Both the position numbers and the translations under genes were made by a program. 64,000 bases of DNA, from NCBI RefSeq assembly GCF_009858245.1, contig NZ_VMSB01000001.1:1612001-1676000 (forward strand), read 5' to 3'. Every line of letters starts with the position of its first letter. The first letter of the stretch is position 1. This document shows positions 393-51,646 of this stretch, piece after piece. A model generated the notes under the pieces. That model was not told the origin of the DNA. It saw only the letters and a program-made list of their open reading frames with translations, and did no database searches. Source of the stretch: Ornithinibacter aureus. Lineage in GTDB: Bacteria; Actinomycetota; Actinomycetes; Actinomycetales; Dermatophilaceae.

Positions 393-463
393 GGGCCAGC
401 GCTGGCCCTGCCACCGGTGGGGCGCCGAGGTGGCGCCCCACCGGCATCCGGGTTCGGATGCCG
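393..463 (-). promoter_or_regulatory. Three consecutive hairpins between rplK and rplA
   Basis: The rplK-rplA gap holds a perfect 16-bp palindrome (393-408), a 13-bp perfect stem with a 5-nt loop (414-426 with 432-444), and an 8-bp stem made of two inverted copies of the octamer CGGCATCC (442-449 with 456-463). No U-run follows on the minus strand, so a simple terminator is unlikely. L1 represses its own operon in other bacteria, so a regulatory or attenuation role is possible, but that is inference. Confidence 0.55.
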
Positions 464-495
464 TGGCACCCGCACGGGCGGGCGCCGGTCCGGGC

Positions 496-930
496 TCAGA
501 GCTCGGTGGTGATGCCCATCTGGCGGGCGGTGCCGGCGATGATCTTCATCGCGGCGTCGATGTCGTTGGCGTTGAGGTCGGGCATCTTGACCTCGGCGAT
601 CTCGCGGACCTGGTCCTTGGTGAGCTTGCCGACCTTGACCTTGTGCGGCTCGCCGGCGCCCTTCTGGACACCCGCGGCCTTCTTGATCAGCTCCGACGCC
701 GGGGGCGTCTTGGTGATGAAGTCGAAGGTGCGGTCTTCGTAGACCGTGATGACGACGGGGATAATGCTGCCGCGCTGGTGCTCGGTCGCCGCGTTGTACG
801 CCTTGACGAACTCCATGATGTTGACGCCGTGCTGACCGAGCGCGGGGCCGACCGGCGGTGCCGGGGTGGCCGCGCCGGCCTGGATCTGCAGGTTGATGTA
901 CCCGGAGATCTTCTTCTTCTTGGGGGGCAT
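496..930 (-). CDS. rplK: 50S ribosomal protein L11
   Basis: A 144-residue L11, the family's normal length. It starts [15 protein letters not shown], where the proline/lysine-rich lead is usual for the L11 N-domain, and has the L11 signature [14 protein letters not shown]-like segment in the middle. L11 forms the GTPase-associated centre with 23S rRNA. The ATG at 928-930 was chosen over upstream in-frame codons because the protein then aligns from the first residue of the family. It lies between nusG and rplA, all read leftward. Confidence 0.98.
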
Positions 931-1038
931 GTTCTGTCCTTGTGGTGGTGGTGACGGGCCGACGCCGTGGGCGATGACCCCTTTGCAGCCCCGAACCCCG
1001 GGGCAGGGTGCTGCGGTAAGGCAGTTTTTGGGGGGATT

Positions 1039-1059
1039 CCGGGGGGCGGAGCCCCCCGG
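1039..1059 (-). terminator. GC-rich hairpin just after nusG
   Basis: A 9-bp perfect stem (1039-1047 with 1051-1059) around a 3-nt loop begins five bases after the nusG stop codon. The bases after it on the minus strand are C- and A-rich rather than T-rich, so it may be a partial terminator, attenuator or mRNA-end stabiliser before rplK. A second smaller hairpin lies near 990-1006. Confidence 0.5.
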
Positions 1060-1063
1060 AGGC

Positions 1064-1930
1064 TTACAGCTTGGTGACCTGGCTGAACGACAGCTCGACC
1101 GGGGTCTCGCGACCGAAGATCGACACGAGCACCTTGAGCTTCTGGGTGTCGGCGTTGATCTCGGAGATCGTGGCGGGCAGCGTCTCGAAGGGGCCGTCCA
1201 TGACGGTGACGGACTCGCCGACCTCGAAGTCGACGACCGTGGTCTCACGGCTCGCGCTCGACGCGGATGCCGTGCCGCCCGCCGCCGCGGCGGCCGCTGC
1301 GGCCTCGAGGTCGGCCGGCTTGATCATCGAGTAGACCTCGTCGAAGGTCAGCGGCACCGGCTGGTGCGCGTTGCCGACGAACCCGGTGACCCCGGGGGTG
1401 TGGCGCACGGCGCCCCACGACTCGTCGGTGAGGTCCATGCGGACGACGACGTAACCCGGCATCCGGACCCGGCGGACGAGCTTGCGCTGGCCACCCTTGA
1501 TCTCGGTGACCTCTTCCATCGGGACCTGGATCTCGAAGATGTAGTCCTCCATGTTCAAGGAGGTGATGCGCGTCTCGAGGTTGGCCTTCACGCGGTTCTC
1601 GTAGCCGGCGTAGGAGTGCACGACGTACCAGTCGCCCACCTTGCTGCGCAGGTCGTCCTTGAACGCCTGGACCGGGTCGACGACGTCGAGGCGGTCGCCG
1701 TCCTCGTCGGTCGCCGAGGCCGAGGCCTCGGCGTCATCCTCGTCGACGTCGGACGCGTCCGCGTCGTCGGCGGAGGCGTCCGGGTCGTCGGCGCTGTCGA
1801 CACCCACGGCGGCGTCCAGCCCCTCGGCCACCGAGTCCGCCTCACGCGACCCCTCGGTCACGGTGTCGGGCAGCACCTCGGGCGCGTCGTCGGACGCTGC
1901 GTCGGGGTTGTCGGTCCACTGGTCGGACAC
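1064..1930 (-). CDS. nusG: Transcription termination/antitermination factor NusG
   Basis: A 288-residue NusG, which binds the RNA polymerase clamp to modulate pausing, Rho action and coupling to ribosomes. Residues ~1-95 are a very acidic Asp/Glu/Ala tail of the kind seen in actinobacterial NusG. The NGN domain follows ([19 protein letters not shown]), then a KOW-type C-terminal domain ([18 protein letters not shown]). An alanine run near residue 225 links the two domains. It stands between secE and rplK as in most bacteria. Confidence 0.97.
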
Positions 1931-1997
1931 GGGAAACCTCTTCCTTGTTCGGTGAATGCCGGGTGGTGCGGCGGTGATGGCGCCTCGCGGCGCGGCG

Positions 1998-2264
1998 TCA
2001 GGAGCCGAACACCAGCCCGACGAGCTTGCTGAAGCCCAGGTCGAGCCCGGCCACGAAGGCCATCATCACGGTGACGAACACGATGACGACGAGCGTGTAG
2101 TTCCACAGCTCGGAACGCGTCGGGCGAACGACCTTGCGCAGCTCGTCGAGGATCTGGCTGACGAACAGGGTCAGCGCCTTGAACCACCGGGAAATGGGGT
2201 TGCCGCCCGACTCCTTGCCCTTGGCGGGCTTGGAGGGAGTCCTGGTCTGACCCACGTCAGTCAC
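1998..2264 (-). CDS. secE: Preprotein translocase subunit SecE
   Basis: An 88-residue SecE with a polar N-terminus, the conserved amphipathic stretch [17 protein letters not shown] and one C-terminal membrane helix ([20 protein letters not shown]). Actinobacterial SecE is of this short one-helix type. SecE clamps SecY in the SecYEG channel in the inner membrane. The gene lies between tRNA-Trp and nusG, which is the standard order. Confidence 0.97.
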
Positions 2265-2367
2265 GGTGCCTCTTCACGTTCGTTGGCATGTCGGTGCCTT
2301 GCGCGCGGCACGACCGCGAAGGCACCCATCGTTCGGATGCAGTCGTGGACGAACCACACGTGCGACG

Positions 2368-2440
2368 CAGGGCAGGAGGGACTCGAACCCCCAACCGCCG
2401 GTTTTGGAGACCGGTGCTCTACCAATTGAGCCACTGCCCT
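2368..2440 (-). tRNA. tRNA-Trp (anticodon CCA)
   Basis: The minus-strand sequence folds as a cloverleaf. The acceptor stem is AGGGCAG/CTGCCCT with discriminator G, the anticodon loop is CTCCAAA with anticodon CCA, and the T loop is TTCGAGT. CCA is not encoded. Its place just upstream of secE is widely conserved. Confidence 0.97.
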
Positions 2441-2611
2441 ACGAGTGTCCCGGTCGGGTGGGGCACTCGCCCGGTGCGACCGTGACCCTCGGGCACGCCG
2501 AAGGATGGTGGTCACACCGGAGGGCAAGCATACGTGAAGCTCCCACCCGGGCGCGAACTCGCCGGCGACTGCGGTGCACATGGGCGGGTCCGGTCGCTGC
2601 TCTGCCACGAT

Positions 2612-3916
2612 ATGGGGGTGAGCACCGACACCGCAGCCACCACCCCCCTCGCCGAGCGTTCTCCTGAGGAACTGCAGGCCTACCTCGAGGAGCAGCGCGA
2701 GGCCTACGCTGCACTGTGCGAGCGCGGTCTGACGCTCGACCTCACCCGTGGCAAGCCGAGCAGCGCCCAGCTCGACCTGTCCGACAGGCTGCTGTCGCTG
2801 CCCGACGGCATCACGGACGCCGACGGTGTCGACGTGCGCAACTACGGGGGCCTGACCGGCCTGCGGGAACTGCGCGAGATGTTCGCCGAGCTGCTGTGGG
2901 TCGACCCCGACCAGCTCGTCGCCGGTGGCAGCTCCAGCCTGACGATGATGCACGACGTGCTCGTCCAGCACCTGCTGCACGGCGGCCTCGACTCGCCGCG
3001 GCCGTGGAAGGACGAGGAGAAGGTCACCTTCGTGTGTCCGGTGCCCGGGTACGACCGGCACTTCACCATGCTCGCCTCCTACGGCATCGAGATGGTGAGC
3101 GTGCCGATGCTGGCCGACGGCCCGGACGTCGCCGCCGTCGAGGCCATCGTGCGCGACGACCCGTCGGTCAAGGGCATGTGGGTCGTGCCGACGTACGCGA
3201 ACCCGGCAGGGTCCGTGGTCACGCAGGAGGTTGCGAGCCGCTTGGCGTCGATGCCCGCTGCGGCCTCCGACTTCCGGATCTTCTGGGACAACGCCTACGC
3301 GCTGCACCACCTCACCGCCGACGAGGCGAAGTCGGCCGACATCCTGTCGCTGGCCTCGGCCGCCGGGCACCCGCACCGACCGATCATGTTCGCGTCGACG
3401 AGCAAGATCACCTACGCCGGCGCCGGAGTCGCGTTCCTCGCCGCGTCCCGCGAGAACATCGCCGCCTACCTGGGGCACCAGCAGTTCGCCTCGATCGGCC
3501 CCGACAAGGTCAACCACCTGCGCCACATCCAGTTCTTCGGGTCGGCGCAGGGCGTGCGTGACCACATGGCCCGCCACCGCGAGATCCTCGCCCCGAAGTT
3601 CGCCGCGGTGGATGCCGCGTTGACCGCCGAGCTGGACGGCCTCGGCATCGCGGAGTGGACCCGTCCGGCCGGCGGGTACTTCGTCTCGCTCGACGTCCCG
3701 GACGGCTGCGCGGCCCGCGTCGTCGCCCTGGCCAAGGCCGCCGGCATCGCCCTGACGCCCGCGGGGGCCTCGTTCCCGCACGGTCAGGACCCCCGCGACC
3801 GCAACATCCGCCTGGCACCGTCCTTCCCCCAGCTGGCCGAGGTCGAGACGGCCATGGCGGGGGTTGCGACGTGCGTCGCCCTCGCCGCCGCAGAGCAGCT
3901 CACCGCCGTAGGCTGA
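2612..3916 (+). CDS. aspT: PLP-dependent aspartate aminotransferase (AspT type)
   Basis: A 434-residue aminotransferase of the AspT/PF12897 group, which interconverts aspartate and oxaloacetate with 2-oxoglutarate/glutamate. Family marks are LTLDLTRGKPSSAQLDLSDR near the N-terminus, YANPAGSV before the cofactor aspartate region, FWDNAYALHHL, and the PLP-lysine segment STSKITYAGAG. The ATG at 2612 is used. A GTG six bases later (MSTDTAATT) is equally possible. It lies four bases upstream of the DUF5709 gene and is probably co-transcribed with it. Confidence 0.9.
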   Translation: MGVSTDTAATTPLAERSPEELQAYLEEQREAYAALCERGLTLDLTRGKPSSAQLDLSDRLLSLPDGITDADGVDVRNYGGLTGLRELREMFAELLWVDPDQLVAGGSSSLTMMHDVLVQHLLHGGLDSPRPWKDEEKVTFVCPVPGYDRHFTMLASYGIEMVSVPMLADGPDVAAVEAIVRDDPSVKGMWVVPTYANPAGSVVTQEVASRLASMPAAASDFRIFWDNAYALHHLTADEAKSADILSLASAAGHPHRPIMFASTSKITYAGAGVAFLAASRENIAAYLGHQQFASIGPDKVNHLRHIQFFGSAQGVRDHMARHREILAPKFAAVDAALTAELDGLGIAEWTRPAGGYFVSLDVPDGCAARVVALAKAAGIALTPAGASFPHGQDPRDRNIRLAPSFPQLAEVETAMAGVATCVALAAAEQLTAVG

Positions 3917-3920
3917 GGGC

Positions 3921-4436
3921 ATGTCCGAACCCCAGGAGAGCCTGACCACCGACCTCGGCGCCTACAGCCTCGATGACGAGGACCAGCTGCAGCCCGGGGA
4001 CACCTTGGACGATGACGACGTCGACGTCCTCGACCGCGGGTACTCCCCGCCGGACACCGACCGCGGATCACGCGCCCACGGCGTCACGGCGTTCGAACAG
4101 TCCCACGACGAGACCATCGAGCAGCGGATCGCCCAGGAGGTGCCTGACCCCGCGTCGGCCTACGGCGCCCCCGACAACGAGTCGGGCCTGGACGAGCGGG
4201 ACCGCGTCGGCGGTGACGACCCCGACAGCATCGACGCCGAGGACGACTGGATCGGTGACGGCGAGGTCGGCGACCTGCGCGCCGGTCGCCTCGTGGCGCC
4301 CGACCGTGGAGTGGGCGAGGACGGCGAGAGCCACCTGATCGGCGAGGACGTCGGCATCGACGGAGCGGCCGCCTCGGCCGAGGAGGCCGCGATGCACGTG
4401 ATCGATCGACTGCCCGAGGACAACGGCACCGAGTGA
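3921..4436 (+). CDS. DUF5709 domain protein
   Basis: A 171-residue, strongly acidic actinobacterial protein of unknown function. Family-like segments are the early YSLDDEDQLQP and the later DRGVGEDGESHLIGEDVGID with EEAAMHVID near the end. It has no signal peptide or membrane segment and is probably cytosolic. The stop TGA overlaps the GTG start of the next gene in a GTGA arrangement, which indicates translational coupling. No biochemical role can be given. Confidence 0.85.
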   Translation: MSEPQESLTTDLGAYSLDDEDQLQPGDTLDDDDVDVLDRGYSPPDTDRGSRAHGVTAFEQSHDETIEQRIAQEVPDPASAYGAPDNESGLDERDRVGGDDPDSIDAEDDWIGDGEVGDLRAGRLVAPDRGVGEDGESHLIGEDVGIDGAAASAEEAAMHVIDRLPEDNGTE

Positions 4437-5479
4437 GCGAGGCGACCGCTGCGCCCCAGCGGTCCGTGACGGACCTGCCCAAGGCCCATCTGCACCTGCA
4501 CTTCACCGGCTCGATGCGGGTGGAGACCGTCCGCGACCTCGCCGAGCAGCACGGCATCCGACTGCCTGCGGCCCTGACCCACGACTGGCCGCCGCACCTC
4601 GAGGCTGCGGACGACCGCGGCTGGTTCCGCTTCCAGCGGCTGTACGACTCGGCCCGCGCGTGCGTGCGAGGGGAGGCCGACATGCGCCGGATCGTGCGCG
4701 AGGCGGCGCTCGACGACGGCGCTGAGGGGTCGCGCTGGCTCGAGCTGCAGATCGACCCGACGTCGTACGCGCCGTTCGTCGGCGGCATCACCCCGGCAAT
4801 CGAGATCGTGCTCGACGAGGCCCGGGTGGTGTCCGCGCAGCCGGGGGCCGCGCAGGTCGGTGTGATCGTGGCGGCGAGCCGGATGCGGCACCCCTTGGAG
4901 GCGCGCACGCTGGCCCGCGTGGCGGCGCGGTACGCGGGGTCGGGGCCGGGAGCCGTGGTCGGGTTCGGCCTCTCCAACGACGAGCGCCGCGGGGTGACGG
5001 CCGAGTTCGGGCCGGCCTTCGCGATCGCGGACCGGGCGGGGCTGGCCCTGCTCCCCCACGCCGGTGAGCTGCTGGGGGCGCAGGCCGTCGCGGAGACCTT
5101 GGACTCGCTGCGCCCGGACCGGCTCGGCCACGGGGTCCGCAGCGTGGAGGACCCCGCGGTGCTCGATCGGGTCGTCGCCGCCGGGGTGGCGCTCGAGGTG
5201 TGCCCCGGGTCGAACGTCGCCCTCGGGGTGTACGAGGACGCGCAGGAGGTTCCGTTGCGACAGCTGTTGGCTGCCGGGGCGACCGTTGCGCTCGGAGCCG
5301 ACGACCCGGTGATCTTCGGGTCGCGCCTTGCCCAGCAGTACGCGACCGCACGAGAGGTGCACGGCATGGATGACGCCGGCCTGGCCGAGTTGGCGCTGGG
5401 GTCGCTGCGGGCCAGCCGGGCACCGTCGGACGTGGTCGCCGCGGCCGTGTCGGACGTCGAGGCCTGGCTGCGCGGCTGA
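4433..5479 (+). CDS. add: Adenosine deaminase family amidohydrolase
   Basis: A 348-residue metal-dependent deaminase that would hydrolyse the amino group of adenosine or a related purine. Zinc-ligand motif HLHLHFTGS is at residues ~18-26. LLPHAGE carries the next histidine, DRLGHGVRS the active-site His, and LGADDPVIFG the catalytic Asp pair. The GTG start overlaps the DUF5709 stop. Adenosine is the default substrate, but aminodeoxyfutalosine or adenine deaminases of the same fold cannot be excluded from sequence alone. Confidence 0.85.
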   Translation: MSEATAAPQRSVTDLPKAHLHLHFTGSMRVETVRDLAEQHGIRLPAALTHDWPPHLEAADDRGWFRFQRLYDSARACVRGEADMRRIVREAALDDGAEGSRWLELQIDPTSYAPFVGGITPAIEIVLDEARVVSAQPGAAQVGVIVAASRMRHPLEARTLARVAARYAGSGPGAVVGFGLSNDERRGVTAEFGPAFAIADRAGLALLPHAGELLGAQAVAETLDSLRPDRLGHGVRSVEDPAVLDRVVAAGVALEVCPGSNVALGVYEDAQEVPLRQLLAAGATVALGADDPVIFGSRLAQQYATAREVHGMDDAGLAELALGSLRASRAPSDVVAAAVSDVEAWLRG

Positions 5480-5562
5480 GGCGGCGGCGCCGCGGGCGCC
5501 GCGGGCGGCGGGCCGCGCGGGCGGCACGGACGGCGTTCCTGTGAGCCGGTAGGGGGGTGTCA

Positions 5563-5596
5563 GGGGACGTCCGGATGCTTCACGTCGTGAGCCACC
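5563..5596 (+). repeat. Left arm of a 34-bp inverted repeat around the XRE gene
   Basis: This arm begins GGGGACGTCCGGATGCTT. It is matched in inverted orientation by 6646-6679 with 33 of 34 bases identical. The pair encloses about 1.05 kb that contains a single helix-turn-helix gene. Confidence 0.9.
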
Positions 5597-5743
5597 CCGA
5601 GCCCGGGCAGCGGCAACCCTCGCGGCGCAGACAACCCCGGCCTGACGGCCCTGGTTGTCCACAGGGCCGCCCGGCGCGGGCACTTGTCCCCAGACGTCGA
5701 CGTCGATCTCCAGTACGCGAGCCTGCTTGGGCACGCTGGCGCC

Positions 5744-6397
5744 ATGGATGATGCACGAGGTCTACCGAACGAGTGGGTGCCCAACCTGCGCCGCGCCCGA
5801 ACCTTCCTCACCGTCGCGGAGGAGGTGGGGTTGGCGCTGCGCGAGCATCGCCGGAAGCTCGGCATGAGTCAGCGTGCGTACGCCAGGCGTCGAGGGCTGA
5901 GCCGTGCCATGCTCGCCAGACTCGAGGCGGGCGCTGGGCAGATGCGCCTCGACACGATCTCCGATGCCCTCGTCGGAACGGGCTTCAGGCTGTGCGTCAC
6001 CTTCTCGATGGGTGAGCCCGATCCGTCCCCCGACGACGCGGCATCCGGATGCGCAGCCGCCGCGGATGACGAGCCCGAGATTCACGTAGCACCCCGGCGG
6101 GTCCCACCCGAGGCCTGGGCGCCGACCGACCTGGTGGCTGCGGTTCGCGGTGGCAGCCGCCGGTTCCCAGCCCATCGGAAGGTCTACCCGGTGACCAACC
6201 CTCCGCTGTGGTGGTGGATGCACGAGTTCTTCAACGGTCCGACCGAGGAGCCGAAGTGGTACGCGCCCGTGCCACGTCCCGACCTCACGCTGTTCCTCGG
6301 CGACCTTGGTGACGACGACGTGGGGGACGACGACGGGGACGACACCCCCGAGGACGATGCTCTCGCTGCACCCAGCGACGAACACGACGCAGCGTGA
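5744..6397 (+). CDS. XRE-family DNA-binding protein
   Basis: A ~217-residue protein with an XRE/Cro-type helix-turn-helix at residues ~25-75 (LREHRRKLGMSQRAYARRRG, then LSRAMLARLEAGAGQMRLDT). A tryptophan-containing region follows (NPPLWWWMHEFFNG) and then an Asp-rich tail. A TTG 60 bases upstream is an alternative start; the ATG at 5744 is preferred. The gene stands alone inside an inverted-repeat cassette. No toxin partner is visible, so it is an orphan regulator or an antitoxin-like remnant. Confidence 0.75.
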   Translation: MDDARGLPNEWVPNLRRARTFLTVAEEVGLALREHRRKLGMSQRAYARRRGLSRAMLARLEAGAGQMRLDTISDALVGTGFRLCVTFSMGEPDPSPDDAASGCAAAADDEPEIHVAPRRVPPEAWAPTDLVAAVRGGSRRFPAHRKVYPVTNPPLWWWMHEFFNGPTEEPKWYAPVPRPDLTLFLGDLGDDDVGDDDGDDTPEDDALAAPSDEHDAA

Positions 6398-6453
6398 TCC
6401 ACAGCTCGCGCAACCCCGCGGCCAGCCACTCATCCCACCCGCCCAGTCCCCTT

Positions 6454-6498
6454 GCCCCACCCTCCGGACCATCCAGAGGATGGTTCGTAGGGTGGGGC
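6454..6498. terminator. Hairpin between convergent xre and murB
   Basis: Two 21-nt arms (6454-6474 and 6478-6498) pair with few mismatches: GCCCCACCCT at the outer left and AGGGTGGGGC at the outer right. There is no clear T-run on either side. It sits ~60 bp after the xre stop, as expected for a bidirectional terminator. Confidence 0.5.
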
Positions 6499-6645
6499 AC
6501 CGTTGGGTGGCGCACCCTTCGATCCTTTCCCCCGTGGTTCGAGGACTTGAGCCCTTGGACGGTTTGAGCGCGGGTCATTCGAGGCCCTTGTGGCTCGCCA
6601 CGCGATGCATCCCGGGGTTGCTTCGCGTGATGGGCCGATGGCGAA

Positions 6646-6679
6646 GGTGGCTCACCACGTGAAGCATCCGGACGTCCCC
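6646..6679 (-). repeat. Right arm of the 34-bp inverted repeat
   Basis: This is the inverted partner of 5563-5596, with one mismatch in 34 bases. The half-diverged related core at about 6588-6615 suggests that the element duplicated locally. Confidence 0.9.
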
Positions 6680-6882
6680 CACCGCTACCCACTCCCAGCG
6701 ACGAACGAGGGGCGCAACGACGAGGCCGCCTCGCTGCTGCCCCCCACTCTCAGCGGTCGACGCACCGTGGGCGCCGCGGCGAAGGCGACAGACCTCCGGA
6801 TGCGCTCGCGCACCTCAGCGCCCACGATCGGCCCCGCTGCGCATCAGTCGGCCACCGCCGCGCCGGGGTCAGCGGCCCACCG

Positions 6883-7953
6883 TCACAGGCTGTGGCCGAC
6901 GAACACCGGCTCGTTGACGAGGGTGACCCCGAAGACGTCGTGGACGCCGTCGCGCACCGTTCGTCCCAGATCAGCGATCTCCGATGCCGTCGCCCCGCCT
7001 CGGTTCGTCACCGCGAGCGTGTGCTTGGTCGACAGCGCCGCGGGCCCGGGCATCCCGAAACCCTTGGTGAACCCCGCCCGCTCGATGAGCCAGGCGGCGC
7101 TGGTCTTCACCTGTCCGCCGGCATCCGGGTAGCGCGGCGGCGAGACGTCGGCACCGAGGTGCTCGTGCACGCGCTCCTCCAGCGCCTCGAACTGCTGCGG
7201 GCTGAGCAGCGGGTTGGTGAAGAACGAGCCGCAGCTCCACGTGTCGTGGTCACCGGCATCCAGCACCATGCCGCGACGCCGCCGCTGCGCCAGCACCGCC
7301 TCGCGCGCCTCGGCGAGCGGCACCCTCTCCCCCACGGCCACGCCGAGCTGGGTCGCGAGATCGGCGTAGCGAACGGGCTGTGACAGCGTCCCCGGGATGA
7401 GCTGGAACATCACGTCGATGACGACGTACCTGTCGGTGCCCTTGAACAGCGAGTGCCGGTAGCTGAACCGGCAGTCCAGCGACGTCATCGTCCGCACCCG
7501 TCCCTCGAGCCGGTCCCACACGCGGACCCGGGCGATGGTCTGGGCGACCTCCTGCCCGTAGGCCCCGACGTTCTGCACCGGCGTGGCACCGGACGACCCG
7601 GGGATGCCGGACAGCGCCTCGATCCCGGACCACCCTTCGTCGACGGCCCGGGCCACGACGTCGTCCCACGGCTCCCCCGCCGCGACGGTGACGTTGGCTC
7701 CGCCGCACTGGTCGAGCGAGTCGACGACCAGGCCCCTGGTCTCGACCTTGATCACGGTGCCTGCGAACCCGGCATCCGCGACGACGAGGTTGGAGCCGCC
7801 ACCGAGCACGATCAGCGGTTCGTCAGCGTCGTCCACCTCACGCACGGCGTCGACGAGCTCGTCAGGTGTCTCGACGACGACCATGCGGGCAGCGGGCCCG
7901 CCGACCCGCATCGTCGTGTGGGCGGCGATCGGTTCGTCGTGCAGCAGCCGCAT
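6883..7953 (-). CDS. murB: UDP-N-acetylmuramate dehydrogenase
   Basis: A 356-residue MurB, which reduces UDP-N-acetylenolpyruvoylglucosamine with NADPH in peptidoglycan precursor synthesis in the cytosol. FAD-binding segments LIVLGGGSNLVVADAGF and GIEALSGIPGSSGATPVQNV are present, along with RDSLF-like FSYRHSLFKGTDRYVV and the serine-containing SCGSFFTNPLL. The length fits the actinobacterial family. The ATG shares one base with the stop of the upstream MaoC gene (TGATG), so translation is coupled to the hydratase pair. Confidence 0.96.
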   Translation of the reverse strand: MRLLHDEPIAAHTTMRVGGPAARMVVVETPDELVDAVREVDDADEPLIVLGGGSNLVVADAGFAGTVIKVETRGLVVDSLDQCGGANVTVAAGEPWDDVVARAVDEGWSGIEALSGIPGSSGATPVQNVGAYGQEVAQTIARVRVWDRLEGRVRTMTSLDCRFSYRHSLFKGTDRYVVIDVMFQLIPGTLSQPVRYADLATQLGVAVGERVPLAEAREAVLAQRRRRGMVLDAGDHDTWSCGSFFTNPLLSPQQFEALEERVHEHLGADVSPPRYPDAGGQVKTSAAWLIERAGFTKGFGMPGPAALSTKHTLAVTNRGGATASEIADLGRTVRDGVHDVFGVTLVNEPVFVGHSL

Positions 7954-8381
7954 CAGTCGAGCCGGACGACCGCGATGCAGCGGCCCAGCACCTTGTCACC
8001 ACCACAGGTCGTCGTGACGTCGACGGTGACCCGCCCGGTGTCGGGGTCGACGGCCTTGACCAGGCCCTGCACCACGATCTCGTTGCCCTCGACGGGCACC
8101 TCGACGGGGCGGGTGAACCGGGTGCCGAACTCGACGACCCGGCCGGCGTCCCCGGCCCAGTCGGCGACGACCGTGCCGGAGGCCCCCATCGTCCACATGC
8201 CGTGGGCGATGACGTCGGGCAGCCCGACCGAGCGGGCGAACTCCTCGTCCTGGTGGATGGGGTTCTGGTCCAGGGACGCGTTGGCGTAGGCGACGAGGGT
8301 CTCGCGGGCCACGGGCACGGTCACCGGGCCGATGACGTCGCCGACGGCGACCTCCGACAGCGGGCGAACAGGCATGCTCAC
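7953..8381 (-). CDS. MaoC-like dehydratase, HadB-type subunit
   Basis: A 142-residue hot-dog-fold protein with the hydratase-2 motif YANASLDQNPIHQDEEFARS, where Asp and His are catalytic, and the following GLPDVIAHGMWTMG. In mycobacteria the HadB subunit dehydrates 3-hydroxyacyl-ACP in FAS-II together with HadA. Here the partner lies directly upstream. The GTG start at 8381 overlaps the partner's stop (GTGA). An ATG six bases inside is an alternative. The hadA-hadB-murB order is common in actinobacteria. Confidence 0.88.
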   Translation of the reverse strand: MSMPVRPLSEVAVGDVIGPVTVPVARETLVAYANASLDQNPIHQDEEFARSVGLPDVIAHGMWTMGASGTVVADWAGDAGRVVEFGTRFTRPVEVPVEGNEIVVQGLVKAVDPDTGRVTVDVTTTCGGDKVLGRCIAVVRLD

Positions 8382-8827
8382 TCCTCCCCGCCGCGAACGA
8401 CGATCGTGGACGTGGAGGTCGCGACGGCATCCCCGGAGGTGGTCGCGAGCTCGGTGCGGGTGGTGACCATCGAGTGGCCGCCGGCAGAGCGCACGGAGTC
8501 CACGGTGGTCACGCCGACGAGCTCGTCGCCGGCCGTGATGGGTCGGTGGTGGACGAAGCGCTGCTCGCCGTGCACGACACGGCTGAAGTCGATCGCCGCC
8601 TCGGGGTCGGTGACGTAGGCGCGCTCACTCTGCTGGGAGAAGCGCACGGCCATCGTCGGTGGCGCGATGACGTCGGCGTACCCGGCGGCCTGCGCCGCGG
8701 CGGCATCGGTGTGCACCGGGTCGGTGGACCCGACGGCTGCAGCGAATGCCGCGATGAGTGCCGCGTCGACGGCATACGGACCACTGTGCGGGTAGGTGCG
8801 CCCGGCGAAATCTGGGTTCACGGCCAT
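8378..8827 (-). CDS. MaoC-like dehydratase, HadA-type subunit
   Basis: A 149-residue hot-dog protein with the FAS1_DH-like N-terminal pattern: MAVNPDFAGRTY, then SGPYAVDAALIAAFAAAVG and the DPVHTD turn. It lacks the full catalytic Asp/His motif of its neighbour, as expected for the structural, substrate-binding half of a HadAB-type heterodimer. The ATG at 8825-8827 gives the standard start. It is the first gene of the coupled trio ending with murB. The physiological substrate chain length cannot be read from the sequence. Confidence 0.87.
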   Translation of the reverse strand: MAVNPDFAGRTYPHSGPYAVDAALIAAFAAAVGSTDPVHTDAAAAQAAGYADVIAPPTMAVRFSQQSERAYVTDPEAAIDFSRVVHGEQRFVHHRPITAGDELVGVTTVDSVRSAGGHSMVTTRTELATTSGDAVATSTSTIVVRGGEE

Positions 8828-8916
8828 GGCGACCACTCTAGGCCCGGCGCCGCAGCGGGGCGCGAGCCGACGCAACCGCGCGCACTCTCGCTGCCGGAAA
8901 TCTCGGGGAGAACGCC

Positions 8917-8954
8917 GAGAGGCCGCCCGCACCAGGTGGTGCAGGCGGCCTCTC
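8917..8954 (-). terminator. Terminator hairpin after rpmG
   Basis: A long GC-rich stem-loop with outer arms GAGAGGCCGCC and GGCGGCCTCTC lies ~20 bp downstream of the rpmG stop on its own strand. Confidence 0.75.
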
Positions 8955-8972
8955 GTGGCGGAACCGCTGGTG

Positions 8973-9140
8973 TCAGCGGGTCTCGCGGTGGGGCGTGTGG
9001 TGCTTGCAGCGCGGGCAGAACTTCGCCAGGTCGAGACGCTCGGGGTCGTTCCGGCGGTTCTTCTTGGTGATGTAGTTGCGCTCCTTGCACTCCGTGCACG
9101 CCAGGGTGATCTTGGGGCGGACGTCGGTGGCCTTGGCCAT
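8973..9140 (-). CDS. rpmG: 50S ribosomal protein L33
   Basis: A 55-residue L33 with all four zinc-ribbon cysteines: CTEC near residue 15 and CPRC near residue 41. It is therefore the C+ form that uses zinc. [18 protein letters not shown] is the family core. The ATG at 9138-9140 gives the normal length; longer in-frame extensions were rejected. tRNA-Met and tRNA-Thr lie upstream on the same strand, a recurrent arrangement in actinobacteria. Confidence 0.97.
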
Positions 9141-9265
9141 GGGGGCAACCTGCTCTCGGGAAAAGTGATTCGATCGTCGGGCGTCGCGCGGAGGCACGAT
9201 TGCACGCGCGACACCAGCACAACAGGATACGCGGCTACGGGCATTCCCCGAAATCGCGGCCTTGG

Positions 9266-9339
9266 TAGCGGGAGCGGGGCTCGATCCCGCGACCTCACGA
9301 TTATGAGTCGTGCGCTCTAACCAGCTGAGCTACCCCGCC
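9266..9339 (-). tRNA. tRNA-Met (anticodon CAT)
   Basis: A 74-nt cloverleaf. The acceptor is GGCGGGG with TCCCGCT (two G-U pairs), discriminator A, D arm GCTCAGCTGGTTAGAGC, anticodon loop CTCATAA and T stem GCGGG/CCCGC. The acceptor is fully paired and the T loop is not initiator-like, so this is elongator tRNA-Met. Confidence 0.95.
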
Positions 9340-9388
9340 AGGGGTTCGATCCGTAGCCAACCACGAGGGCAGGCCCCGGCCGGACCGG

Positions 9389-9461
9389 AGCCCCCTGTCG
9401 GAATCGAACCGACGACCTTTTCCTTACCATGGAAACGCTCTGCCGACTGAGCTAAGGGGGC
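9389..9461 (-). tRNA. tRNA-Thr (anticodon GGT)
   Basis: A 73-nt cloverleaf with acceptor GCCCCCT/AGGGGGC, discriminator T, anticodon stem TTTCC/GGAAA around loop ATGGTAA, and T loop TTCGATT. It is ~50 bp from tRNA-Met on the same strand. Confidence 0.96.
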
Positions 9462-9508
9462 GTGCGCTACCAGCGGAGACCGCCGGGCGCCACGGAGACA
9501 GTACACGC

Positions 9509-10300
9509 TCAGGATCGGTCCAGTGAAATCCTCGCCTCGACGAGGGACGGGCCGTACCAGGTGATGCGCCTGCCCGACACCAAACGCGTCGGCAGTCGCT
9601 CGAGAACCTCGGGCCCGTCAGCGGTCGTGAACACGTACGGCTCGTCCGGCAACAGCACGAGGTCCGCCACCGAAGGATAGTCGAAGGCCACCGGTTCGAG
9701 CCCCGGATAGCGGCCGGTCGCCCCGGCCGTCACGACCTCGAGCCCGGTGCGCGCCAACAGGTCTGCCGTGAACGTCGGACGCCCGATGACCATCCACGGA
9801 TCACGCCAGATCGGCACGACGACGCGGGCCGTCGGCGCGGGCACCGGCCCGCTCCAGGCCCGGTCCGCCTCCGCCAGCCAGGCGGGGTCCCTCCCCAGCC
9901 CGATGACATCACGCAGCAGGCGCCGGATCGAGGCGATCGAGGCGGGAACGGTCTCGATGTCGGTGACCCAGACGGGCATGCCGCGCTCACGCAACCGGCG
10001 CACGTCCAGTTCGCGGTTCTCCTCCTTGTTGGCGACGACGAGGTCGGGCTGCAGGGCGGCGATGGCGGCGAGATCCGGGTTCTTCGTGCCGCGCACCCGC
10101 CCGACCCCGCGGGCGTCGAGGTCAGCGGGGTGGGTGCACCAGTCGGTGGCACCGACGAGCCGGTCGGGCACGGTGACGGCGAGCGCCTCCGTCAGCGACG
10201 GGACGAGGGAGACGATGCGCTCGATGCGATCGGGCAGGGCGATGTCCTGCCGCAGGTCGTCACGCAGGGTTCGCGTCAAGCGCAGGCGACGACCCGGCAT
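9509..10300 (-). CDS. Helical-backbone metal receptor (BtuF-like) protein
   Basis: A ~263-residue protein of the PF01497 periplasmic-binding fold, which binds corrinoids or ferric chelates. The family marks RIERIVSLVPSLTEALAV at the start and LVGATDWCTHP are followed by NPDLAAIAALQPDLVVANKEEN. There is no signal peptide or lipobox, so the protein appears cytosolic, unlike transport-linked members, and no ABC genes are nearby. The start is uncertain. The ATG at 10300 has a GAGGG motif upstream; in-frame starts at 10321 and 10342 would add a short MPGHEGRMPG-like repeat. Confidence 0.75.
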   Translation of the reverse strand: MPGRRLRLTRTLRDDLRQDIALPDRIERIVSLVPSLTEALAVTVPDRLVGATDWCTHPADLDARGVGRVRGTKNPDLAAIAALQPDLVVANKEENRELDVRRLRERGMPVWVTDIETVPASIASIRRLLRDVIGLGRDPAWLAEADRAWSGPVPAPTARVVVPIWRDPWMVIGRPTFTADLLARTGLEVVTAGATGRYPGLEPVAFDYPSVADLVLLPDEPYVFTTADGPEVLERLPTRLVSGRRITWYGPSLVEARISLDRS

Positions 10301-10356
10301 CCGACCCTCGTGACCCGGCATCCGGCCGTCGCCGGGGGGCACCGTGTCGGGGCGGG

Positions 10357-11118
10357 TCAGCGCGGCGCCATCCGCAGCGCGCCGTCCATGCGGATCGTCT
10401 CGCCGTTGAGGTAGTCGTGGTCGACGATCGCGAGGGCGAGCTTCGCGTACTCCTCCGGGCGGGCGAGTCGCTGCGGAAACGGCACCCCGGCGGCCAACCC
10501 GGCGCGGAACTCGTCGGAAACCGTGGCGAGCATCGGGGTCTCGACGATGCCGGGGGCGATGGTGACGACCCGGATGCCGTACTGGGCGAGGTCGCGAGCG
10601 GCCGGCAGCGTGAGCCCGACGATGCCGCCCTTGGACGAGCTGTAGGCGGCCTGGCCGACCTGACCGTCAAACGCGGCGATGCTCGCGGTGTTGATGACGA
10701 CACCGCGCTGCCCGTCGGCGTCGGGCTCGGTCTGGGCGATCGCCTCGGCGGCGAGCGCCATGACGGTGAACGACCCGACGAGGTTGATCTCGACGACCTT
10801 GCGGAACAGGGCGAGGTCGTGCACACCCTTGCGGCCGAGGATGCGAGTGGAGGGACCGATGCCGGCGCAGTTGACGACGATGCGCAGGGGCCGCGACGGG
10901 TCGTCGGATGCGACGGCGACGGCGGCGCGGACCTCCTCCTCGGACGTGACGTCGGTCGGCTGGTAGTGCACCCCCTCGACGGATGGCCCCGCCTCGCACG
11001 CGGCGGCGAGGTCGAGGGCGACGACGCGGGAGCCGGCGGCGGCGAGCGCGGCCGCGGTGGCGGCCCCGAGCCCCGAGGCGCCCCCGGTGACGATGGCGGT
11101 GGTGTTCGCGGTCTGCAT
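10357..11118 (-). CDS. Short-chain dehydrogenase/reductase, 3-hydroxyacyl-CoA dehydrogenase-like
   Basis: A 253-residue classical SDR. The NAD-binding motif TGGASGLG is at residues ~10-17, NCAGIG follows the fourth strand, and the catalytic Ser/Tyr/Lys are in NTASIAAFDGQVGQAAYSSS and the following SKGG. The acidic residue in VVALDLA favours NAD over NADP. The overall pattern resembles type II 3-hydroxyacyl-CoA dehydrogenase (fatty acid or branched-chain oxidation), but substrate cannot be fixed from sequence. The ATG at 11116-11118 is preferred over two upstream codons. Confidence 0.85.
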   Translation of the reverse strand: MQTANTTAIVTGGASGLGAATAAALAAAGSRVVALDLAAACEAGPSVEGVHYQPTDVTSEEEVRAAVAVASDDPSRPLRIVVNCAGIGPSTRILGRKGVHDLALFRKVVEINLVGSFTVMALAAEAIAQTEPDADGQRGVVINTASIAAFDGQVGQAAYSSSKGGIVGLTLPAARDLAQYGIRVVTIAPGIVETPMLATVSDEFRAGLAAGVPFPQRLARPEEYAKLALAIVDHDYLNGETIRMDGALRMAPR

Positions 11119-11161
11119 GGTCGCCATCCTGCCAGTCGGTGCCGCCACCTACGGTGGAGCC

Positions 11162-11959
11162 ATGGCACTACGCATCGGTGGACACGTCGACCAGCTCGAC
11201 CCCGTGGCGGAGGCCCTGGCCCGGGGCGCGACCCTGTCCCAGATGTTCCTGGGCGACCCGCAGAGCTACAAGGGCCCGGTCGTGGAGTACGCCGGCGGCG
11301 CCGCCGCACTGCGGGCCGCGGCCGAGGCCGCGGGTGTCGACCTCTACGTGCACGCGCCGTACCCGATCAACGTCGCGTCGACGAACAACCGGATCCGCAT
11401 CCCGGGGCGCAAGCTGCTGCAGCAGCACCTGCACGCCGCTGCCGAGATCGGCGCCAAGGGTGTCGTCGTGCACGGCGGGCACCTCGGCAAGGACGAGGAC
11501 GCCGCGGTCGGTTTCGACAACTGGCGCAAGTGCATCGACGGGCTCGACCTGCCGGTGCCGCTGCTCATCGAGAACACCGCGGGCGGTGACAACGCCATGG
11601 CCCGCCGGCTCGAGGCGATCGCGCGCCTCTGGGACGCGATCGGCGCGGCGTCCGGGGGCGATCGGGTGGGCTTCTGCCTCGACACCTGCCACGCCCACGC
11701 CGGCGGCAACGACCTCGGCGAGGTCGTCGAGCGGGTGCTGGCGATCACCGGCCGGATCGACCTCGTCCACGCCAACGACTCACGCGACACCTTCGACTCG
11801 GGCGCCGACCGGCACACAAACTTCGGGTCAGGGCTCATCGACGGCGCCGAGCTCGCCGACGTCGTGCGGGCCGCGGCCGCGCCGGTGGTCTGCGAGACGC
11901 CCGGTGGCGTCGAGGGTCAGGCTGTCGACATCGCCTGGCTTCGCGCGCGCCTCGGCTGA
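11162..11959 (+). CDS. nfo: Deoxyribonuclease IV (AP endonuclease family 2)
   Basis: A 265-residue TIM-barrel endonuclease that cuts 5' of abasic sites in base-excision repair. Metal-binding residues appear in the expected order: the YVHAPYPINVAS histidine, VVHGGHLG, LLIENTAGG glutamate, FCLDTCHAHAGG, DLVHANDS, the DRHTNFGSG His pair and a terminal VVCETPGG glutamate. All signature positions are present, so the enzyme should be active. It is divergent to the SDR gene and converges with the DinB-like gene, ending one base before it. Confidence 0.93.
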   Translation: MALRIGGHVDQLDPVAEALARGATLSQMFLGDPQSYKGPVVEYAGGAAALRAAAEAAGVDLYVHAPYPINVASTNNRIRIPGRKLLQQHLHAAAEIGAKGVVVHGGHLGKDEDAAVGFDNWRKCIDGLDLPVPLLIENTAGGDNAMARRLEAIARLWDAIGAASGGDRVGFCLDTCHAHAGGNDLGEVVERVLAITGRIDLVHANDSRDTFDSGADRHTNFGSGLIDGAELADVVRAAAAPVVCETPGGVEGQAVDIAWLRARLG

Positions 11960-11960
11960 G

Positions 11961-12482
11961 TCAGGCCGCCCGGCCGAGCACCGCGAGGATCCTGGCCGTC
12001 CGGTCGGCGTCCGGCCCGACGTCCAGGGGGCCCTTGCAGATTCCCTCCGCGTACAGGTGCTCGCCGAACGTCGGCACGACCGCTTCGAGGATGTCGATCT
12101 CCTCGTCACCGAGAGGGGCCACCAGCCCGGCACCGGTCGCGATGTCCCACCGGTGGACTATGAGGTCGAAGCCGTAGAACGTGGTCATCGTCTGCCCGAC
12201 GGTGCTCGGCCCGAAGGGGGTCTCGTAGGCGACGTCGGCGAGGCCGGGCAGCACCTGCGCCACGAGGGCCCGGTGTGCCGCCCACCGCTGTGCCGGGTCC
12301 GCAGTCGTCGGCTCGGGAGCAAGGTCGGTGTGCGCCCGCAGGAAGTCACGCTGCGTGCTCACGACGTGGTCCACGACGTCGCCGACGCTCCAGCCCTCGC
12401 ACGGTGAGGCGGCCAACCAGTTCGGCACGGCATCCACGACGTCGGTGAAGCGGTCGGTCAAGGTGGCATACGTTGGGTTCAT
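11961..12482 (-). CDS. TIGR03086-type DinB/maleylpyruvate-isomerase-fold protein
   Basis: A 173-residue four-helix metalloprotein-like gene. The conserved block SPCEGWSVGDVVDHVVSTQR matches the N-terminal pattern of mycothiol-dependent maleylpyruvate isomerase/DinB families, and the second histidine is in TFYGFDLIVHRWDIATG. Actinobacteria have many such paralogues, mostly uncharacterised. The ATG at 12480-12482 was chosen because the family begins there. It is divergent from the AraC regulator, separated by 33 bp, so the two may share a control region. Confidence 0.8.
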   Translation of the reverse strand: MNPTYATLTDRFTDVVDAVPNWLAASPCEGWSVGDVVDHVVSTQRDFLRAHTDLAPEPTTADPAQRWAAHRALVAQVLPGLADVAYETPFGPSTVGQTMTTFYGFDLIVHRWDIATGAGLVAPLGDEEIDILEAVVPTFGEHLYAEGICKGPLDVGPDADRTARILAVLGRAA

Positions 12483-12515
12483 GCTGCGACGGTACGAGCG
12501 CGGGCGGGCCGGCAC

Positions 12516-13346
12516 TTGACCAAACCCGACACACCGCTCGACGACGTCGAACGCGCGCACCTCGTCGACCCGACCGACACCACCTACGCGATCGACCGGT
12601 TCGCGCCCTCCCCCGACGTCGTCGATCTCGTGCGTCGGCACTGGGTGCCGGTGTGGCACCTCCCCGAGGGCGAGTCCTCGGAGCAGGCGGTCCTGCAGTA
12701 CCCCGTGTGCCTGGTGGTCGTCGCCCACGACTACGCACGCTTCTACGGCGTCCAGTCAGGGCTCTCGCGAACCACGCTGGTCGGCACGGGCTGGGCCGCT
12801 GGGGTCATGCTGCAGCCCGGCGCGGGACGGCTGCTCCTGGGCCGGGACGTGTCGACCGTGACCGACAGGCATCTCGAGCTCTCGGACGTCCTCGGCAGTC
12901 AGGTCGTCTCGGACGTCCGCGCCGCCATGACCGACCCGCAGGACCCCGGATGCCGTCGCGAGGCGGCCGACAGCCTCGAGGCCGTGATCCGCGCCCACCT
13001 CCCGCTCGACGACGAAGGACGGCTCGTCAACGACCTCGTCGACCACATCGAGCACGACCCCTCGGTCCGGCAGGTCTCGCAGGTGTGCGACCGGTTCGGG
13101 CTCAGCGAGCGCGCACTCCAGCGGCTCACCCGACGACGGCTGGGCCTGACGCCGAAGTGGCTCATCCAGCGTCGTCGGCTCCACGAGGCCAGCGAGCGGC
13201 TGCGCGCCGGCCCAGGAGACCTCGCCGCCATCGCCCACGACCTCGGGTACGCCGACCAGGCGCACTTCACCCGTGACTTCCGGCGCGTGACAGGGATGAC
13301 GCCGGGCGGTTTCGCGCGCCGGTTCGCTGCCGGCGCAGATGCCTGA
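12516..13346 (+). CDS. AraC-family transcriptional regulator
   Basis: A 276-residue regulator with an N-terminal DUF6597-like sensing domain and a C-terminal AraC double helix-turn-helix: VSQVCDRFGLSERALQRLTR, then LAAIAHDLGYADQAHFTRDF, with the family end FRRVTGMTPGGFARRF. The apparent start is TTG at 12516, with no better ATG in frame. Its promoter region is shared with the divergent DinB-like gene, a plausible target. The effector is unknown. Confidence 0.87.
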   Translation: MTKPDTPLDDVERAHLVDPTDTTYAIDRFAPSPDVVDLVRRHWVPVWHLPEGESSEQAVLQYPVCLVVVAHDYARFYGVQSGLSRTTLVGTGWAAGVMLQPGAGRLLLGRDVSTVTDRHLELSDVLGSQVVSDVRAAMTDPQDPGCRREAADSLEAVIRAHLPLDDEGRLVNDLVDHIEHDPSVRQVSQVCDRFGLSERALQRLTRRRLGLTPKWLIQRRRLHEASERLRAGPGDLAAIAHDLGYADQAHFTRDFRRVTGMTPGGFARRFAAGADA

Positions 13347-13393
13347 CACGTCGGTGACAGGGCGACGTCAGGGGCCCACCGCACGGTGGGGCC

Positions 13394-16864: not shown

Positions 16865-16901
16865 TCGGGATGACCGAGCCTGCCTCAGGGCAGGTGCAGC
16901 C

Positions 16902-48915: not shown

Positions 48916-48927
48916 GGCGCGATCTTC

Positions 48928-50160: not shown

Positions 50161-50273
50161 GGCGCTCAATCTATGTCGTGGACCCGCTGGTCGCGTGCCG
50201 GCCGCGGATGCCTGTGGACAACCAGGTGGCTGGAGCGCAAGACGTCGGTTCGGGCGCGGTGCGCCGGGTGCGA

Positions 50274-50307
50274 AAAGGCCCGGACGACAGGGTCGTCCGG
50301 GCCCTTT
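50274..50307 (-). terminator. Rho-independent terminator with no gene feeding it
   Basis: A strong stem (arms 50274-50288 and 50292-50307, AAAGGCCCGGACGAC outer left) is followed on the minus strand by TTTT, so it terminates leftward transcripts. The only sequence just upstream of it on that strand is the tRNA-3'-end-like fragment at 50315-50337. Confidence 0.75.
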
Positions 50308-50314
50308 CAGCACG

Positions 50315-50337
50315 GGTGGCAGGTGAAGGATTCGAAT
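50315..50337 (-). other. tRNA 3'-end-like fragment, putative attachment site
   Basis: Read on the minus strand this gives TTCGAATCCTTCACCTGCCA followed by CC: a T loop, the 3' half of a T stem, a seven-base acceptor strand, a discriminator A and CC. The 5' side of the T stem does not pair, and no tRNA body follows. This is what integration into a tRNA 3' end leaves behind. It lies ~155 bp from the integrase start. Confidence 0.5.
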
Positions 50338-50421
50338 ATTCTCCCAGCCGAGCGTAAATCTTCCCTAGAATTGCCCTGACCTGCGCGTTTATGGTGACAG
50401 AGGAGGCACGAGTACCCTCTC

Positions 50422-50474
50422 ATCTGGCACGCATCTGGCACGATTTGGTGTTCATCTGGCACGTATCTGGCACG
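50422..50474 (+). repeat. Four ATCTGGCACG repeats upstream of the integrase
   Basis: Identical 10-mers start at 50422, 50433, 50454 and 50465, spaced 11, 21 and 11 bp apart, so all lie on one face of the helix. The last ends 18 bp before the preferred integrase start. They look like arm-type sites or an operator for the integrase itself. Confidence 0.9.
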
Positions 50475-50491
50475 AAATGAGGGGGTCCGGG

Positions 50492-51646
50492 ATGCCGGGA
50501 AAGAGGTCCTTCGGGTCGATCCGCCGACTGAGCTCAGGTCGCTACCAAGCGCGGTACACCGGTCCTGACTTGCAGACGCACACAGCCCCGGAGACGTTCA
50601 CGGCCAAGATCGATGCCGAGGCTTGGCTCGCTGCCGAACGGCACCTGAGCGAAGACCCGGCGAACTGGCGGGCTCCGAAGGTGCGGCTGGAGCAGGAGTA
50701 CGACCGTCGTGCCCGGCTGCGGCGCTTCACCTTCGGACCGTACTCAGAGGACTGGCTCGCGCATCGGGACCTCGCGGCGAGCACACGGAATACCTACGCA
50801 CAGCTGCTCAAGCATCACCTTCTTCCAACGTTCGCCGACGTCCCGCTATCGGAGATTGACCGAGCGCTCGTCGCCACCTGGTATCGACGCGTCGGAGCCG
50901 GCAGGCCGCACGCCCGGAAGCACGCCTACGACCTTCTTCGCAACATCCTCAACATGGCCTTGGATGACGAACTGATCGATCGCAACCCGGTGCACATCCG
51001 CGGCGCAAGCAACGTCAAACGCACGGGTACGACTCAACCCGCGTCCCTTGACGAACTCGAGGCCCTTGCCGAGGCGACCCCTGAGCGGTACCGGCTCATG
51101 GTGCTTCTCGCGGCGTGGTGCGCCCTGCGCAAGGGTGAGCTGTCCGAGCTGCGCCGCAGCGACGTGGACACCACGCAGTGGGTCCTGAGAGTGCGGCGAG
51201 GCGTCGGTTTCGTCCCGGGCCGCACCGTGGTCAAGGACCCCAAGACCCAGGCGGGTAAGCGCGACGTCGCTATTCCAGAACATCTCGTGCCGATGGTTCG
51301 CGAACACCTCCTTCGACATGCCCAACAAGGAGGTCAGGGGCTGATGTTTCCCTCAGCACGTGGTGAGCACCTGCGGACGTCCGCTATCGGTCGCTGGTAC
51401 TACCCAGCCCGTGAGGCCGCCGGACGACCTGACCTTCGCTTTCACGACCTCCGCCATACCGGCGCTGTCCTCGCGGCTCAGTCAGGTGCAACGTTGGCGG
51501 AGTTGATGCACCGCCTCGGCCACACCACTCCCGCAGCGGCGATGCGTTACCAGCACGCCGCAGCGGAGCGCGACCGCGAGATAGCCCAACGCATGTCGAA
51601 GCGCTACCGGGAACACGTGCAGGCGAGACCATCGGACTGCACCTAA
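50492..51646 (+). CDS. int: Tyrosine site-specific integrase
   Basis: A 384-residue phage/ICE-type integrase. An N-terminal AP2-like arm-binding region (FGSIRRLSSGRYQARYTGPD) precedes a core-binding domain and a catalytic domain. The conserved residues are R213 (ALRKGEL), H318 and R321 (FHDLRH), the later histidine in LMHRLGH, and nucleophile Y353 (AMRYQH). All are present, so it should be active. The ATG at 50492 has GAGGGGG upstream; an ATG at 50477 is in frame but lies against the repeats. It marks the left end of the acquired region. Confidence 0.95.
   Translation: MPGKRSFGSIRRLSSGRYQARYTGPDLQTHTAPETFTAKIDAEAWLAAERHLSEDPANWRAPKVRLEQEYDRRARLRRFTFGPYSEDWLAHRDLAASTRNTYAQLLKHHLLPTFADVPLSEIDRALVATWYRRVGAGRPHARKHAYDLLRNILNMALDDELIDRNPVHIRGASNVKRTGTTQPASLDELEALAEATPERYRLMVLLAAWCALRKGELSELRRSDVDTTQWVLRVRRGVGFVPGRTVVKDPKTQAGKRDVAIPEHLVPMVREHLLRHAQQGGQGLMFPSARGEHLRTSAIGRWYYPAREAAGRPDLRFHDLRHTGAVLAAQSGATLAELMHRLGHTTPAAAMRYQHAAAERDREIAQRMSKRYREHVQARPSDCT

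Follow-up and report, generated by a model that had tools for sequence, protein, structure and literature searches.

Why does a single octamer recur so densely in the chromosomal DNA of Ornithinibacter aureus and almost vanish where an island of mobile genes begins? The chromosome of this bacterium is one contig of 3,695,644 bp, from which a stretch of 64,000 nucleotides (positions 1,612,001-1,676,000), called the window here, was analysed. The octamer is GGATGCCG, with the reverse complement CGGCATCC; we refer to it as the GG word, and to a one-letter variant used by sister genera, GTATGCCG, as the GT word. An earlier note on this DNA, counting by eye, had put about 60 copies in the backbone and about two in the last 13.5 kb, and had called the word strongly over-represented in the former and nearly absent from the latter. 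An exact count on both strands gives 82 copies, 81 of them within 442-50498 and one at 57194, which makes the excess stronger than the note had said and leaves the island at the level of chance rather than of avoidance. Shuffles of the window that preserve dinucleotides yield a mean of 5.84 copies and a maximum of 14 (n = 100), and an order-2 Markov model expects 5.2 copies in positions 1-50500, where 81 are found. We consider the chances about even that GGATGCCG forms the core of an uptake sequence for DNA, one that has dialects and is maintained by biased transformation.

The whole chromosome carries 4480 copies in 3.70 Mb (1.21 per kb), while the same word read backwards, taken as a control, has 130 and 132 copies on the two strands. 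In a sample of 864 kb, made up of the window and forty 20-kb stretches spaced along the chromosome, 1087 copies compare with 88.5, 123.5 and 300.8 expected from Markov models of orders 2, 3 and 4 trained on the same DNA, and GGATGCCG is the top octamer of the genome by order-3 and order-4 score; a place among the most over-represented words, at about one copy per kb, is a mark of uptake words. The earlier note had named models of order 5 or 6 as the ones that might explain the word away. Trained on the same DNA these expect 682.3 and 921.2 copies, but at such orders the model absorbs an eight-letter word, so that the comparison is nearly circular; trained on four sister genomes, they predict only 208 and 193 copies, and the over-representation stands.

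The way the copies lie in genes supports the view, already put forward in the earlier note, that selection or drive acts on the DNA word itself. In 815 genes, called with a simple script that scores codons, and in the DNA between them the word is equally dense (1.253 per kb of coding and 1.293 per kb of intergenic sequence), and the 954 coding copies divide into 491 sense and 463 antisense. The description of the copies as falling in genes, between genes and in all frames is accordingly right in its first two parts and only loosely so in the third, as one frame accounts for 398 of the 954 and the two least-used frames for 31. Where the word falls in a gene it forces rare codons, as had been noticed: the aspartate codon is GAT in 396 of 490 cases within G[GAY]GCC-G, compared with 18-28% in contexts one base off and 10.7% overall, and the alanine codon is GCA in 185 of 201 GCA/GCC cases within CG[GCx]TCC, compared with 10.4% overall. 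The two strands are used alike, with 2258 forward and 2222 reverse copies on the chromosome and near-balance in almost every sampled stretch. Relative to an origin inferred at about 2.396 Mb, from three sites resembling the DnaA-box consensus and from where cumulative GC skew is lowest in the sampled stretches, genes are co-oriented with replication at 489:326, and leading and lagging copies of the word number 564 and 523 (p = 0.23). The lack of orientation bias is another trait of uptake words.

The site that is read seems to be somewhat longer than the octamer. Around 126 intergenic copies, which are free of codon effects, C stands at position -1 in 85, T at +8 in 66 and, more weakly, G at +9 in 62; given these biases the site is read approximately as C-GGATGCCG-TG, that is, as the 11-mer CGGATGCCGTG. 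Over-representation against an order-3 model falls steadily with mismatches to this 11-mer, from 84 times for none to 7.7, 1.55 and 1.06 times for one, two and three. The earlier note had called for the one-base neighbours of the octamer to be counted as well, and in 800 kb a strong excess is limited to GTATGCCG (92 against 7.5 expected) and CGATGCCG (346 against 197). Some others, such as TGATGCCG (102 against 70), GGTTGCCG (102 against 62) and GGAAGCCG (80 against 41), are mildly raised, GGATGCCA (21 against 41) and GGATGCCT (15 against 33) are at about half of expectation, and the remainder are near it.

Individual copies of the word are not conserved. In a congener, G397 (78% DNA identity across 68 kb), the word is kept at 18 of 72 aligned GG sites (18 of 67 without gaps), compared with 21.8% of all 8-mers, 45 of 179 one-mismatch neighbours and 1039 of 5448 words of the same composition. 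Since the retention is about that of the control words, single sites are hardly protected although their density is kept, a turnover that fits drive and argues against site-specific functions.

Whether sister genera carry the same word was among the checks that the earlier note had proposed, and the answer is a set of dialects. In the family of O. aureus (Dermatophilaceae/Intrasporangiaceae), outside its own genus, the GT word reaches 625-3277 copies in 21 of 33 genomes and 7-71 in the other 12. Word discovery in samples of 40-100 kb finds it in six genomes (G213, G017, G122, G324, G368 and G395), and it is also seen at named loci of Knoellia, Humibacillus and Nostocoides jenkinsii; a locus of Nostocoides sp. 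Soil756 instead has 16 GG copies against 2.1 expected and a single GT. In a scan by AdnB alignment the best matches came from Phycicoccus, Knoellia, Nostocoides, Humibacillus, Janibacter and Serinicoccus, in keeping with this family. Within the own genus, GG/GT counts for the four species are 4480/361, 3619/288, 2195/1217 and 2099/1189 (all but the first genome being drafts, 83-93% complete), and two of the species thus hold both words in quantity, as if in the middle of a switch. Single-base dialects between related taxa are again what uptake words show. An exception is found in two genera of the family, g5 and g9, where all four genomes use an unrelated word, CGAAGGGG, in 3180, 2589, 2201 and 1813 copies with balanced strands (108-344 copies in 20 other genomes compared); a Janibacter locus likewise shows it.

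Trees of AdnA and ComEC place the own genus inside its family, as sister to the GT user G122, while the AdnB tree leaves the sister open. The simplest history would be a switch from GT to GG in the own genus through loss of old sites and formation of new ones. Direct conversion of old GT sites is rejected, as GG stands here at 2 of 29 (G122), 0 of 19 (G397) and 0 of 8 (G398) aligned GT sites and at 5 of 88 over eight relatives, which are not independent of one another. In a genome of a second family, f19 (probably Microbacteriaceae), GT copies (34 and 38 on the two strands of G038) are near the control level of 27 and 21, which makes the GT copies in the own genus either a leftover or a second form that is tolerated.

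In this second family the GG word is common and yet far from general. It exceeds 400 per Mb in 26 of 33 f19 genomes, of few genera, as read from the table of an order-wide sample of 396 genomes, and in 35 of 100 genomes of a broader f19 sample covering 85 genera (six genomes overlap with the order-wide sample), where counts range from 34 to 4491. None of the other 362 genomes of the order-wide sample outside f19, the own genome apart, exceeds 400 per Mb, the highest read being G235 with 1336 copies in 3.5 Mb, and the densest genome outside the order has about 195 per Mb in a class sample of 98 genomes, six of them from the order. No clear word was seen in 40 kb each of G446, G413, G431, G454 and G421. 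Weaker words of GGATCC type are enriched in low-count f19 genomes (G401, G443, G480, G430 and G489; loci L105-L124), for instance CAGGATC with 40 copies against 6.5 in G443, AGGATCC with 32 against 3.6 in G401 and CGGATCC with 77 against 19.9 in G430. A locus of Hamadaea tsunoensis (L241) has 46 copies of the palindrome GCGTACGC against 4.1 expected on both strands of 24.7 kb, and G136, from the own family, has 31 copies of the related CGTACGCC in 40 kb against 3.5 expected (L099-L100); both are possibly further words of the same kind.

DNA of recent arrival carries few copies, as is expected of an uptake word, and mobile regions of the kind that the earlier note had wished to see compared are near background. 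The island of the window (50498-64000) has a GC content of 0.64-0.69 in 2-kb windows, compared with 0.68-0.75 before it; it contains, by Pfam, a tyrosine integrase (PF00589) and transposases of the IS110 (PF01548) and ISL3 (PF01610) types, and its only copy of the word is at 57194-57201 on the minus strand. It begins with the integrase, of tyrosine phage type, at 50492-51646 on the plus strand. A stretch at 1.748 Mb rich in insertion sequences, where four of five genes tested are transposases, has two copies in 20 kb. Parts of 25-46 kb from five phages (four of Microbacterium, one of Curtobacterium), whose hosts are likely word-rich, together have 20 copies in 146 kb against 14 expected by an order-2 model, single phages ranging from none against 2.1 to seven against 2.4. 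Both ends of the contig are also poor in the word, with two copies at positions 1-20,000 and six at 3675000-3694999. Both carry genes of cobalamin synthesis and cobalt transport (CobN, CbiM, CbiO, precorrin methyltransferases) at normal GC, and low density there is consequently not an effect of composition; this large cluster may have been acquired. Across 172 segments of 5 kb, the number of copies rises with GC content (rho 0.54) and codon score (rho 0.33).

How could such a word be maintained? A putative receptor, probably in or attached to ComEA/ComEC and a Flp (Tad) pilus system, would prefer DNA that bears the word, and DNA of kin would thus be taken up and recombined more often, provided that these bacteria are competent. 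Copies would accumulate at any place that mutation allows, whatever the strand and whether inside a gene or outside it, and islands would be without them at first. A shift of the receptor's preference by one letter would let the old word decay while copies of the new one gather elsewhere, and such shifts could give the dialects of genera, GT and then GG in the own genus. The genome does hold uptake genes: comEA, encoding helix-hairpin-helix and SLBB domains, lies directly upstream of comEC, and a type II/IV secretion ATPase is encoded beside a TadE/G-like gene that falls just below the Pfam cut-off. In a survey of 80 genomes (24 of the own family, 28 high-count and 28 lower-count f19 genomes), ComEC passes its cut-off in all 80, word-rich or not, so this machinery is present but does not separate the two kinds. 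PilT (TIGR01420 over cut-off) is found in 30 of the 80, in none of the 24 own-family genomes and, in f19, in 18 of the 28 with high counts and 12 of the 28 with lower counts, and by this proxy a ComP-type pilin or type IV pilus is rejected as the reader, which tells against that branch of the idea and not against its working principle. Import of the reader from f19 is rejected too: the own genus has AdnA, AdnB and ComEC proteins that are 41-65% identical to those of relatives in the family and 34-42% to those of f19, and these identities, together with the trees, indicate that the three genes were not imported.

Known uptake systems offer the closest likeness. The DNA uptake sequences (DUS) of Neisseriaceae, as excerpts of PMC3630211 describe them, occur as thousands of 10-12-mer copies (about 1900 in the 2.2-2.3 Mb of Neisseria, up to several thousand for other dialects), have single-base dialects that follow phylogeny, and may share one species, as in Simonsiella muelleri, where two words one base apart are present in near-equal numbers. 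Here, by contrast, the phylum is another and PilT is absent from the own family, leaving no obvious receptor of the ComP type, and the uptake role is itself a deduction. The letters ATGCCG resemble the start of the Neisseria word, presumably by coincidence. The uptake signal sequences (USS) of Pasteurellaceae have a density similar to that of GGATGCCG. They too show no orientation bias and a graded over-representation with similarity to the word, according to passages of PMC1939737, but they have extended A/T-rich flanks where bias here is limited to -1, +8 and +9. In Micrococcus luteus, transformation depends on Flp pili with ComEA/ComEC, as stated in passages of PMC4322843 and PMC8467076, and comEA, comEC and tad-like genes are likewise present in O. 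aureus.

Several points weigh against an uptake sequence. A word search of the text of these two Micrococcus papers (PMC4322843, PMC8467076) found neither "uptake sequence" nor "uptake signal". The known type of receptor is a type IV minor pilin, and with PilT mismatched another must be postulated. Nor is there an excess of hairpin pairs, a further difference from DUS, as among copies at most 40 bp apart 30 pairs have opposite and 40 the same orientation. ComEC is also found in genomes without a clear word, such as G446, and does not discriminate. Finally, RecC is present in one of nine GT-rich and nine of eleven GT-poor own-family genomes outside the genus, an association that hints at break repair, although phylogeny confounds it.

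This last point leads to Chi, which the earlier note had listed among four possible roles together with a segregation motif, a nucleoid-protein site and an uptake or self-recognition word, the last of these being, in our judgement, the best fit. Chi of RecBCD or AddAB is an octamer as well, enriched in core DNA and depleted in acquired DNA (PMC8022716, in part), but E. coli Chi, at about one per 5 kb and almost only on the leading strand by the same account, is some six times sparser and polar, while the word here has no polarity. RecC (TIGR01450) occurs in ten of the 80 surveyed genomes, all of the own family, in none of the 32 high-GG genomes (28 of f19 and four of the own genus) and in none of the 28 lower-count f19 genomes; without RecC in word-rich genomes and without polarity, RecBCD-Chi is ruled out. 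A non-polar signal of similar kind for AdnAB or another helicase-nuclease, marking self DNA and starting recombination, is a more serious candidate. AdnAB is present in all 20 genomes fetched, enrichment in the core and depletion in acquired DNA suit it equally, and RecC is missing from the 32 high-GG and eight of nine GT-rich genomes. Yet AdnAB is present in the word-poor G443, G411, G202 and G094 too; the absence of RecC from all 56 f19 genomes, word-rich or not, explains nothing there; and RecC fails as a strict predictor of GT, as G257 has both (1624 GT copies) and G235 and G267 neither. In Proteobacteria, moreover, a search confined to relatives of the E. coli site found five Chi motifs, related to one another (PMC8022716, in part), where here entirely different words occur among the genera of a single family. 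We regard such a signal as doubtful. Taken together, the strand balance, the density, the indifference to position, the fall-off with mismatches, the dialects, the genomes with both words and the scarcity in the island match uptake sequences better than Chi or any other word known to us.

The remaining alternatives do without uptake or recombination signals. HIP1, the highly iterated palindrome of cyanobacteria, is an abundant octamer with about one copy per kb and an uneven distribution among genera, linked to a DNA methyltransferase and of unsettled cause; by analogy, DNA methylation, repair of mismatches or patches, or some other bias of mutation or gene conversion could maintain the word here. 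The lack of conserved positions and the half-expected counts of GGATGCCA and GGATGCCT suit such a bias, but GGATGCCG differs from HIP1 in lacking palindromic symmetry and in having dialects, most of its one-base neighbours are not depleted, and the biased positions -1, +8 and +9 suggest a protein reading a longer site, so that we see this as a possibility on the unlikely side. Binding sites of a nucleoid or regulatory protein would be dispersed and in part intergenic, as the copies are. Coding and intergenic densities are equal, however, congeners do not share the sites, and the exact word changes from genus to genus, so that this role is quite improbable. FtsK-orienting polar sequences (KOPS), or another replication-oriented segregation or terminus motif, would also number thousands of dispersed octamers, but the strands are symmetric by chromosome and by replichore in spite of the co-orientation of genes, and a misplaced origin is an unlikely escape with the whole chromosome and nearly every stretch in balance. 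The skew expected of such a motif is absent, which rules out KOPS or any polar segregation motif and leaves the idea next to no probability.

In the window, the backbone (442-50497) has its 81 copies on both strands, about one per 0.6 kb, the last of them, at 50490-50497, overlapping the start of the integrase as called. Two inverted pairs could form hairpins, namely CGGCATCC-N6-GGATGCCG at 442-463, outside the called genes, and GGATGCCG-N6-CGGCATCC at 36190-36211, with 6 bp between the copies; a triplet on the minus strand at 37867-37916 has copies 21 bp apart. The 11-mer CGGATGCCGTG occurs 15 times, at 455-465 on the plus strand and with starts at 1264, 4550, 17637, 21939, 23427, 26223, 29187, 36189, 38108, 38295, 39514, 40370, 40962 and 47343. 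The GT word occurs seven times, at 8770-8777 on the minus strand and at 17546, 18402, 23590, 27084, 32155 and 40046.

Other repeats were seen in the genome alongside the word. A dispersed, mostly intergenic repeat with the core CGACTTCGTGCGACTT lies in stretches L032-L036 (2.21-2.60 Mb), frequently as pairs in opposite orientation, some 58 bp apart (L034:8893 and 8951; L035:16489 and 16547). In the 864-kb sample, 14 of 21 matches to ACTTCGTGCGA fall in the five stretches nearest the inferred origin, and the repeat is possibly an element of the origin domain. A second dispersed repeat, approximately GTACCtgcaGTGACCTATTGGTCGATctGGGTAC, is also mostly intergenic and often has two or three units about 52-54 bp apart (L030:14152-14260, L031:323-427, L044:5180-5284 and position 37798 of the window); its core ACCTATTGGTC has 34 matches in the sample. 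At C1:1924987-1925028 there are tandem 7-bp repeats of GGATGCC, with five overlapping 14-mers in a row.

No earlier report of such words in these bacteria was found in the open-licence literature, where the papers listed dealt with other subjects or were, to judge by title, general works on uptake words and Chi or surveys of communities; matches to the exact word, among those listed, were unrelated by title. To our knowledge, uptake words belong to two proteobacterial families. The same frame is used in PMC1939737. More tentatively than for the word itself, we suggest that Actinomycetota may own a hitherto unrecognised sequence-specific uptake system, with families of self-recognition words at about one per kb, dialects that can switch inside a genus, and a receptor belonging to the Flp/Tad-ComEA-ComEC machine instead of a ComP-type pilin. 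Whether it is an uptake word or a Chi-like one, GGATGCCG marks acquired DNA in these genomes. Were it a Chi-like signal of AdnAB, the view of break repair in actinobacteria would change. If it is an uptake sequence, self-recognition in transformation would extend to a second phylum with a different pilus, and the mixtures of GG and GT within one genus would represent a dialect switch, tying receptor specificity and barriers to gene exchange to a single base.

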